Source of the DNA: Nitrospirales bacterium
Lineage (GTDB): Bacteria; Nitrospirota; Nitrospiria; Nitrospirales; UBA8639
Reading direction: 5' to 3'
DNA: 56,998 nucleotides
Assembly: GCA_020027535.1 (NCBI GenBank)
Contig: JAHRAK010000092.1
Location: 1-56,998, forward strand
Shown here: positions 14,477 through 49,745 of the stretch, piece after piece
Layout of the letters: each line of letters begins with the position of its first letter
How positions within the stretch are numbered: the stretch's first letter is position 1
Translations under genes and position numbers: made by a program
Notes under the pieces: model-generated
Seen by the model: only the letters and a program-made list of their open reading frames with translations
Database searches by the model: none
What the model was told of the DNA's origin: nothing

Positions 14477-14516
14477 TTCCCTCTCCCTCTGGGAGAGGGT
14501 TGGGGTGAGGGGGCAG
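14477..14516. repeat. CCCTCTCCC...GGGAGAGGG palindrome
   Basis: CCCTCTCCCTCTGGGAGAGG followed by GTTGGGGTGAGGG. Relatives lie at 18251-18305, 34617-34652, 45152-45192, 45795-45858 and 49228-49265. Confidence 0.75.
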
Positions 14517-25469: not shown

Positions 25470-25491
25470 GGTTGAGCAGTCGAAGGCTTGA

Positions 25492-25955
25492 ATGAAGGCA
25501 CAGAACCCCAAAAGAGAGTCGCCAGCCATCACTCCCCCCTTGAGGGGGAGTCGGCAAGCCAAGGGCGTCAGCCCGCAGGCGAGCCGGTGGGGGGAAATAC
25601 AACGCCAATACACCCGACCAACCCTCCAAAGAGCCCATACCCTCCGAGAACGCCGGACCGATGCCGAAGGGCTCCTCTGGCACTACCTGCGCGACAAACA
25701 ACTCGACGGCTACAAATTCCGCCGCCAACAGCCGATAGGCCCGTACATCGTCGATTTCGCCTGTATGCCTCACAAACTGCTCATCGAACTCGATGGCGGT
25801 CAGCATGCGGAACGAAACACCTACGACCAAAAGCGCGCTGCATACTTGCGAGAGAAGGGCTACAAAATCCTGCGCTTCTGGAACAACGAAGTCTTCGAGA
25901 ACTGTTTGGGGTGTTGGAGAACATTTATGATGCCTTACATCATCACCCCCCGTGA
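25492..25955 (+). pseudogene. DUF559 endonuclease-like gene with a frameshift
   Basis: The N-terminal frame encodes a DUF559 (very-short-patch-repair-endonuclease-like) domain: RRTDAEGLLWHYLRDKQLDG, FRRQQPIGPYIVDFACMPHK, LLIELDGGQHA and GYKILRFWNNEVFEN. The family's usual ending (here LFGVLENIYDALHHHPP then TGA at 25953-25955) is in the next frame, so a base seems to be missing near 25902 (AACTG where AACCTG would join the frames). If not corrected, the first frame runs on to 26274 through repeat sequence, overlapping cbiX. The gene is flanked by long inverted repeats, and translation of the first residues also reads the left repeat. Confidence 0.75.
25528..25595. repeat. Left inverted repeat flanking the DUF559 gene
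   Basis: It begins ATCACTCCCCCCTTGAGGGG, continues GAGTCGGCAAGCC and ends GAGCCGGTGGGGGG. Its reverse complement matches the right repeat at 25990-26057 closely over the first 27 bases and loosely thereafter. Confidence 0.7.
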
Positions 25956-25989
25956 GAGAGGGTCGATAGGCGTCAGTCTTTCGGAGAGG

Positions 25990-26057
25990 CCCCCCACCGC
26001 ATCAGCCTTCGCCTCACGGCTCGGCTTCTGCGACTTCCCCCTCAAGGGGGGAGTGAT
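25990..26057. repeat. Right inverted repeat flanking the DUF559 gene
   Basis: It reads CCCCCCACCGC, then CGGCTCGGCTTCTGCGACTT and CCCCCTCAAGGGGGGAGTGA. It is the inverted partner of 25528-25595. A CCCTCTCCCTCAAGGGGAGA palindrome follows at 26069-26090. Confidence 0.7.
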
Positions 26058-26104
26058 TGCAAGACCACCCTCTCCCTCAAGGGGAGAGGGGGTGAAGAAG
26101 GACA

Positions 26105-34616: not shown

Positions 34617-34790
34617 TCCCTCTCCCCTCGCGGGAGAGGGTTGGGGTGAGGGGGAGGTAGGGACAACCCCCCGTGGTTGTCCGTCGGGGAGGTTCCATGG
34701 TTCATTCGGGACGGCACCCTTCGGCTTCGCTCCCTTCGACTACGCTCAGGACAGGCAGGGCAGGCTCCGGCCGTCCCCTGCAATGATAAT
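34617..34790. repeat. Compound block of three palindromic repeat families
   Basis: CCCTCTCCCCTCGCGGGAGA with GTTGGGGTGAGGG is followed by GGGACAACCCCCCGTGGTTG and by GGGACGGCACCCTTCGGCTT to GGCAGGCTCCGGCCGTCCCC. This block and the TGTCTCA sites fill the 34352-34817 gap. Confidence 0.75.
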
Positions 34791-45149: not shown

Positions 45150-45265
45150 TTTTCTCCCTCTCCCCGCCGAGGGAGAGGGCTGGGGTGAGGGGGAAACGGT
45201 CAATGAGTGAGCCCATCTCTCGGATTACGCTACGCCTGTCCTGAACGTAGTCGAAGGGCTAATCC
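45150..45265. repeat. CCCTCTCCC and GTCGAAGGG repeats downstream of the nirA operon
   Basis: CCCTCTCCCCGCCGAGGGAG plus GCTGGGGTGAGGG (45152-45192) is followed by GGATTACGCTACGCCTGTCC and GTAGTCGAAGGGCTAATCCG. Confidence 0.7.
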
Positions 45266-45469: not shown

Positions 45470-45864
45470 GGCGTTTTTTCTCCCTCTGTGATCCTCGACG
45501 CCCCCTCCGGTCATCCTCGACGCTTGTCCCCGACCTGATCGGGGATCCAGGCGATCTATAGGATCCAGCGTCTTTGCCTTTTCCTGCGTCCGTGAAGACG
45601 CGGGACGGCACCCTTCGGCTTCGCTCAGGGCAGGCGCAGGCCGTCTCCTACAACCGCAAACCGTAGGAACAGGCCCCCGTGCCTGTCCGTCAATCTGTCG
45701 GTTTATGCTATGGATTGTTGTGCTATGCTATGATCTGCTGCAATATGCTATGAACTGTCGGGTTACGCTACGCAACCCGACCTACGGAGCTCATCACCCT
45801 CACCTTCATCCTCTCCCATCAAGGGAGAGGAGACTTAGAGGAGGTTGGGGTGAGGGTGAAACGG
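45470..45864. repeat. Repeat-filled intergenic region
   Basis: GTCCCCGACCTGATCGGGGA (about 45525-45545), GGGACGGCACCCTTCGGCTT (45602), a GTAGGAACAGGC/GCCTGTCC hairpin (about 45664-45688), four 20-base tandem units at 45695-45774, and CCCTCTCC/GGAGAGGA elements at 45795-45858. I see no gene in this 395-base stretch. Confidence 0.75.
45695..45774. repeat. Four 20-bp degenerate tandem repeats (TATGCTATG core)
   Basis: Units are CTGTCGGTTTATGCTATGGA (45695), TTGTTGTGCTATGCTATGAT (45715), CTGCTGCAATATGCTATGAA (45735) and CTGTCGGGTTACGCTACGCA (45755). All are exactly 20 bases; the last merges into the GGGTTACGCTACGC repeat family. Confidence 0.75.
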
Positions 45865-49149: not shown

Positions 49150-49745
49150 GTCGGAGTAGTCGGGGTAGGTCGGATTAGCCCTTCGACTACGCTCAGGACA
49201 GGCGTAGCGTAACCCGACAATCCGTGTTTCCCCTCACCCCGGCCCTCTCCCTCAGGGGAGAGGGAGAAAATAGTAGCGTAACCCGACAACTAACAGAATA
49301 CCCTTAAGTGTAAATTTTGTTCAATCCTAAAGAGTCTCTCATATCTGGTGCCGGGTTTCGGTGCCCGCGCTCTACCTCCCAACTTTTCCCTCTTCGGAAA
49401 AAGTTCCCGTCCTTACAAAGGAGGGGAACAGGCAAGAGAGCCGACTTTTTCCTCCCCTTTGTAAGGGGAGGTCAGGTGGGGTAGAGCCAAACTTGTGCTT
49501 TTTGTGCTACATTGAACACGAAAATTTCGCGAATGGTGGAGAAGCCTTAACACAAATGAAACATAGAGCCAATAAAATTCCGTATGCAGGTTTGCCGCGT
49601 CCACCTCAAGGGATATGAAAATGAGGATGAATCTGTCATCCTCGACATTTTTAATCGAGGATCCAGGGTTTTTTCTTTTTTCTCCGTCCGTGGAGAGAAC
49701 GACACTGGATTCCCGATTACTAACGTCGGGAATGACAGAGGATGG
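49150..49745. repeat. Repeat-rich 716-base gap upstream of phoB
   Basis: GGTCGGATTAGCCCTTCGAC with GCGTAGCGTAACCCGAC (about 49168-49218), CCCTCACCCCGGCCCTCTCC (about 49230-49262), CCTCCCCTTTGTAAGGGGAG (about 49452-49471), a TGCAGGTTTGCCGCGTCCAC hairpin relative (49583) and GTCATCCTCGAC...GTCGAGGATCC-type elements (about 49636-49740). No gene is supported between 49125 and 49840. Confidence 0.7.

Follow-up and report, generated by a model that had tools for sequence, protein, structure and literature searches.

DUF559 Nuclease Genes between Inverted Intrastrand Triplex Motifs: A Candidate Autonomous Partner of the PIT/BoxC/TM Repeats

Results

A DUF559 Gene Enclosed by Inverted Repeats behind lspA

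The window, that is, the whole 56,998-nucleotide stretch analyzed here (Nitrospirales bacterium, assembly GCA_020027535.1, contig JAHRAK010000092.1), carries behind lspA a gene with a DUF559 (PF04480) nuclease domain, which lies between two inverted copies of a repeat. The features of the locus are as follows (window positions):

25492..25526, + strand: apparent start codon plus about 11 codons, resembling the hsdM start beside the same site in genome G001
25527..25594, + strand: left end (LE), with an 8-bp hairpin, a second-loop hairpin and a gene-facing tail GGTGGGGGG; single-strand fold z -3.0
25624..25902, + strand: DUF559 (PF04480) nuclease domain by profile match; the frame shift after 25902 costs the last ~12 profile positions
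25938..25965, + strand: probably what is left of a second left end (LE2), from by-eye comparison with relatives
25966..25989, no strand: putative spacer from the LE2 remnant to the right end, resembling the spacer of the gene-less pairs of G008
25990..26057, - strand: right end (RE), of the other subtype of the repeat of LE, with its tail toward the gene
26068..26094, + strand: another hairpin alongside, similar in kind to the triplex motifs and decayed in part; member of inverted pair I2

The sequence-only reading of this locus had described imperfect 68-bp inverted repeats around the DUF559 gene, and such repeats are indeed present: local alignment recovers a repeat of about 68–71 bp in which 58 of 68 aligned bases match, with a 25-nt core (25525–25549 / 26036–26060) that is 96% complementary, and the inverted-repeat score reaches 28, when the highest of 108 shifted-window controls from the same genus loci reaches 12.5. 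The left arm, formerly placed at 25528–25595, runs to 25594, and both arms lie in open frames, in line with the earlier view that they extend into the reading frame. The suspected frameshift near 25902, read as a sign that this copy is decaying, is supported as well, because the domain match (E 2.5e-38) reaches only position 96 of the 109-position profile while related copies run to 108. The second left end is intact in the relatives L022 and L133.

Left and right ends differ consistently in subtype, and their arms are unequal. In single-strand folds, each arm forms a hairpin of 8 or 6 bp with another hairpin behind it; the G-rich end stays unpaired in the left arm and largely unpaired in the right one. 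The left end of the window has the purine arm GGGGGAG and the tail GTGGGGG, and the second loop of this repeat, hereafter type A, is about 34 nt long and structured. Five solo copies of the repeat are found elsewhere in the genome of the window, and tens in most genomes of the genus.

Other repeats and traces accompany this locus. Six more triplex motifs of other types are found in the window, at 14479–14511, 34618–34652, 45156–45191, and 49451–49483 on the + strand and at 45797–45831 and 49231–49264 on the - strand, along with weaker ones at 2327, 18253, and 40380. The site behind lspA (25470–25530; L069) looks in relatives like an hsdM/restriction island, of which the window retains only the apparent first hsdM codons. 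In genome G013 (L142, L143, and L144), left ends repeat in tandem every 149 bases, and left and right ends alternate in arrays with a period of about 365 bases.

The DUF559 Protein

The only Pfam matches in the element are DUF559 and the related nuclease family MTES_1575, with no transposase among them. A viral scan with the DUF559 protein of the window gave no matches, and PADLOC detected no defence system beyond a weak DpdF fragment. The predicted model of the protein (mean pLDDT 86) matches the DUF559 structure 3hrl, then I-Bth0305I, a homing endonuclease (probability 1.00; TM up to 0.74), and Vsr (probability 0.97), and DUF559 is accordingly predicted to fold like these last two; at the sequence level, the similarity of our five-row profile to 3r3p is weak (E 0.02). 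E25, D54, D67, H71, and D78 are invariant in a 26-row alignment of DUF559, and this E, D, H, D residue set is what we take to be the EDxHD motif. The available part of PMC12350094 uses the EDxHD name for homing endonucleases. DUF559 thus has its fold and its E, D, H, and D residues in common with the I-Bth0305I/EDxHD/Vsr enzymes (3r3p), whereas it lies outside any intron or intein and is framed by triplex motifs. The Caulobacter protein VsrA, likewise a DUF559 protein with the same Pfam domain as that of the window, is tied to DNA damage and proposed for mismatch repair in the available part of PMC12907096, a role that differs from the one considered here.

The Framing Repeat Is a Known Motif

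The unusual fold of intrastrand triplex repeats has been a subject of study since 2000, and Hoyne and Maher are said to have worked on the PIT element. The repeat that frames DUF559 is this known bacterial intrastrand triplex motif (PIT/BoxC/TM), named TM_ECO, and also PIT or BoxC, in Holder et al. 2015 (PMC4666352). In it, a pyrimidine arm rich in C is followed by a short loop, the complementary purine arm, 2–3 bases, and a G-rich tail, which mirrors the purine arm and has A or T where that arm has A. A mirror tail (at least 0.9) was found in 107 of 202 asymmetric-arm hairpins, the corresponding count for a direct copy being 48 of 202 (one locus, L250, was dropped as a duplicate of L199). The DUF559 ends and TM_ECO/PIT/BoxC are alike in their hairpin followed by a mirror tail, that is, in the succession of pyrimidine arm, purine arm, and mirroring third arm, as well as in their two second-loop classes, TTA and CCG/CTG, and in their inverted A+B pairs; in our reading of Table 1 of PMC4666352, part of which was available, tails point inward in four of the five MG1655 motif pairs. 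Loops of 1–6 nt, as searched for in the available part of that paper, are found in our types B and D and in other phyla, whereas the second loop of type A in the window, at about 34 nt, exceeds this range. The two loop classes also sort to the two ends, with TTA at the upstream end and CCG or CTG at the downstream end in Desulfobacterota (L158–L161) and likewise in the type B loci of the genus, an assignment that is reversed in some Dyella loci and thus not universal.

What sets the present loci apart from TM_ECO/PIT/BoxC is that the motif frames DUF559. The available part of PMC4666352 reports that neither transposase or integrase remnants at motif sites nor a mobility gene nearby was found, and leaves the origin and mechanism of the motif unanswered. 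Our search of titles and abstract openings, with subscription papers and preprints mostly outside its scope, returned no literature tying DUF559 to inverted repeats or triplex motifs. The repeat was known already; its partner, DUF559, is what is new here.

Inverted Motifs Frame DUF559 across Phyla

Within the genus, we scored inverted repeats in 300-base DUF559 flanks independently of strand labels, and found a score of at least 20 in 20 of 28 loci versus none of 108 shifted windows. A scan of named genomes with a five-row alignment profile gave 80 DUF559 loci; once those with less than 150 bases of flank were left out (6 of the 80 named, four same-genus, L147–L150), 74 non-genus loci were usable, among which 53 score at least 18, versus 1 of 548 shifted windows, one of the 53 (L168) being an artefact of an N run. 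With this locus dropped and the mirror rule used as detector, motif polarity was counted at 73 named loci: a tails-inward motif lies upstream, on the gene's strand, in 59, downstream, on the other strand, in 52, and on both sides in 46, when the opposite polarities give 16 and 14 at the same loci and shifted controls give 11 of 1,072 strand-windows and 0 of 268 pairs. In the order of Lysobacter, the motif is upstream in 23, downstream in 20, and on both sides in 17 of 30 loci (which include the duplicate L250), and the inverted score is at least 18 in 27; in 22 of the 24 Nitrospirota loci (L059 and L062 left out), the corresponding counts are 17, 18, and 14, with control pairs at 0 of 40. Among eight loci on named replicons, a strong inverted pair is present in three (Deinococcus, S. 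meliloti, and Sphingomonas), and no flanking repeat was found at the P. aeruginosa locus. This placement of the gene between inverted repeat copies across phyla suggests that gene and repeat make up one self-spreading element.

Two variants may be mentioned here. The type E loci (L016, L032, L033, L036, L038, and L040) have, by eye, a repeat on the 5' side and none on the 3' side, and may represent a form that is fixed or in decay. A contig titled as a Rickettsia typhi MAG, a doubtful species label, holds a DUF559 element (L154) that lies within a long frame and whose repeat is related yet distinct.

Repeat Type Follows DUF559 Clade and Motifs Follow the Gene

For the genus tree, we kept 26 of 30 DUF559 domains (no stop, more than 85 aa), 25 of them with enough flank, and assigned the repeat types A to E from the flanks. 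Each of the five types occupies one branch, the five changes on the tree being the minimum, and none of 200 shuffles came as low as five, with rows that include orthologous sites and are therefore non-independent. Types A and B, judged by their flanks, are present at several different sites.

We then looked at the distribution of gene and motif across 299 genomes of the order to which a Lysobacter genome belongs. Of these, 120 have DUF559 and 91 the exact motif pattern, the reversed pattern, used as a control, being present in none. The motif is found in 83 of the 120 genomes with DUF559 versus 8 of the 179 without (odds ratio 48, shared descent ignored), which leaves 37 genomes with the gene only, 8 with the motif only, and 171 with neither; motif copies total 1,810 in DUF559 genomes versus 42 in the others. 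For the REP transposase family Y1_Tnp, taken as a control, the motif is found in 69 of 205 genomes versus 22 of 94 (odds ratio 1.7, p 0.08). DUF559 is also present in 130 of 295 genomes of one phylum, and the motif in all 15 searchable genomes out of 16 named DUF559 genomes that were asked for. Within the genus, the genomes without DUF559 (G002, G003, and G007) have the lowest counts of the canonical pattern, 8, 9, and 0, when the other eleven have 13 to 135. Other observations count against the model: type A repeats are numerous in G001, G006, G010, and G011, which have no type A gene, and E. coli O157 and LF82 are without the DUF559 gene ycjD, at least O157 having repeat matches elsewhere.

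The Same Sites with and without the Gene

At the lspA site, where the window has LE–DUF559–RE, genome G001 has the same left flank followed by LE, 18 bp, and RE, with no gene. At an hsdS site, the full element is present in G005, G004, and G013 and a gene-less pair in G009 and G008; G011 and G001 have neither gene nor pair there, and their alleles were rejected as exact precursors, their divergent flank differing from that of the element-bearing allele. Some full copies have the order LE–gene–LE–spacer–RE, and because these hold two direct left ends, recombination between the two would yield precisely the gene-less pair.

Two of the motif pairs of MG1655 vary among E. coli genomes. The hrpB–mrcB query is covered at 80% or more in 3,521 of 5,426 genomes, and 10 of 30 lack about 102 bases among the matches listed; for fepB–entC, the same coverage is reached in 2,752 of 5,426 genomes, and 11 of 25 are about 186 bases shorter among the matches listed. 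Three E. coli motif pairs (L264, L265, and L266) have a similar spacer of about 30 bases and a similar outer flank beyond the triplex arms, and because these parts are common to them too, the repeated unit may be of about 110 bases. Two further E. coli candidates were set aside. The ycjD gene with its surroundings, present in 3,361 of 5,426 genomes, was rejected as a clean empty-site case, its motif lying on the 3' side only and its other allele being the eefRABCD efflux operon (PMC12817139, available in part). The alx–sstT site of strain L272 was likewise rejected as an empty site and reads as a partial loss, because one motif remains there.

In the sequence-only reading, the locus could be a small unit, mobile or self-spreading, with the palindromes for ends, to be recognized by such ends at the borders of DUF559 genes in other genomes and by empty sites in related strains. 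Inverted ends do frame DUF559 across phyla and gene-less sites do exist in relatives, although at the window's own site G001 keeps the repeat pair and lacks only the gene, and because the repeats are thus nonrandom around DUF559 and such sites exist, the reading of a presumably mobile unit is supported; no clear target-site duplication or clean junction was found at hsdS, hrpB–mrcB, or fepB–entC.

An Element in Frame inside hsdS

Within HsdS, between FDPV(R/H)AKAALR and WTVERARAYL, Nitrospira genomes and one Binatota genome carry the type A element in frame, and a second Binatota locus has the same HsdS flanks. The reading passes through both ends and the DUF559 domain and results in frames of 745–790 aa. 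The loci concerned, which share one position in this type I specificity gene between Nitrospirota and Binatota, are L148, L147, and L152 (HsdS frames) and L151. A palindromic element in frame within coding genes is a feature of the Rickettsia palindromic elements as well, from which type A differs by the nuclease gene that it carries; to our knowledge, their repeat sequence is unrelated.

Discussion

We consider it probable that DUF559 and its two inverted triplex-motif ends form an autonomous element, of which the scattered single and paired PIT/BoxC/TM repeats are the non-autonomous offshoots. Four observations support this: the framing of the gene by the motifs in a strongly preferred polarity, the repeat type matched to the DUF559 clade, the occurrence of the motif mostly in gene-bearing genomes, and the existence of gene-bearing and gene-less forms at the same sites. 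Weighing against it are the failure to find a target-site duplication or clean junction, an association across genomes that ignores shared descent, the genus genomes rich in type A repeats and devoid of a type A gene, the repeat matches in E. coli O157, which has no ycjD, the single 3' motif of ycjD and its operon as alternative allele, the one-sided type E loci, and the strong pairs at no more than three of eight replicon loci. As to how such an element may spread, the repeat, as a single strand, for instance on the lagging-strand template, would fold into a triplex or a hairpin; recognition and cutting, of the folded repeat or of its target, would fall to the EDxHD-type nuclease; and host break repair would then copy the element or its ends in a homing-like manner, with no strand transfer by the enzyme. 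Nucleases of this superfamily are not known to join strands, hence our preference for copying by cut and repair. Recombination between the direct left ends (LE–gene–LE2–spacer–RE) would delete the gene and leave an LE–spacer–RE pair.

A parallel is offered by the REPtrons, formed by REP/REPIN repeats and RAYT, which, in the available part of PMC3733652, also have an enzyme gene between inverted palindromes, a matched repeat type, and many gene-less copies or pairs; a repeat type of its own for each enzyme clade, as in REPtrons, is likewise found for DUF559. The DUF559 enzyme, in contrast, is not a Y1/HUH transposase, and the tail of its repeat is a mirror repeat. Membership in REP/RAYT was rejected on the grounds that there is no Y1 domain, that Y1_Tnp is not predictive of the motif (p 0.08), and that the GTAG tag is lacking, neither GTAG nor CGTC having been seen by eye beside the window hairpins. 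With insertion sequences and MITEs, the element shares terminal inverted repeats and not the transposase.

Other relationships between gene and repeat have to be weighed. The pairs could arise by a separate process and DUF559 be a true homing endonuclease that enters only pre-existing repeat pairs, as the LE–spacer–RE of G001 facing the LE–DUF559–RE of the window at one site, the hsdS pairs of G008/G009 facing the gene in G004/G005/G013, and the nearest solved relative after DUF559 itself, a homing endonuclease, would all allow. We nonetheless deem this unlikely, for the same-site forms have no set direction, being compatible with gene gain or gene loss, and the motif is absent from 171 of 179 genomes without the gene, a scarcity that suggests that the gene drives the pairs too. 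It is also conceivable that other machinery spreads the repeats and that DUF559 is a Vsr-like repair nuclease, a passenger shuffled by inter-repeat recombination, for which the direct second left end would provide a route; the repeats outnumber DUF559 genes and persist without them, and the DNA-damage link and proposed mismatch-repair role of the Caulobacter protein (PMC12907096, available in part) point the same way. Passengers would however be expected to vary, whereas the polarity of the pairs and the clade-matched repeats point to a single gene family and no pair was seen in 268 shifted control windows, which makes this explanation improbable in our eyes.

Even less credit can be given to a regulatory relationship, in which the DUF559 protein would bind the motif at its own gene and the scattered motifs would be the sites of its regulon. 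Motifs near both gene ends, often overlapping the 3' coding end, and a match of clade and repeat type would suit a protein and its site. Nevertheless, E. coli PIT/TM motifs are described as devoid of promoter or terminator activity and of gene-class bias (PMC4666352, available in part), elements sit within hsdS reading frames, and the predicted fold is that of a nuclease.

Returning to DUF559 as the proposed autonomous partner of the repeats, a broader proposition can be put forward tentatively, as a serious possibility that we would not yet bet on: the loci may represent a new class of selfish element, made of one gene for an EDxHD-fold nuclease and of triplex-folding ends, in which a non-B structure would be the mobility signal, PIT/BoxC/TM repeats would be the gene-less descendants, no transposase would take part, and life in frame within genes, as in hsdS, would be tolerated.

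The triplex repeats hereby gain, in DUF559, a candidate driver gene for their origin, a question that is now directly testable through the presence or absence of DUF559. If true, this would provide a domain still labeled "unknown function" with a working role, and it suggests that a non-B DNA structure can act as the end of a mobile element.
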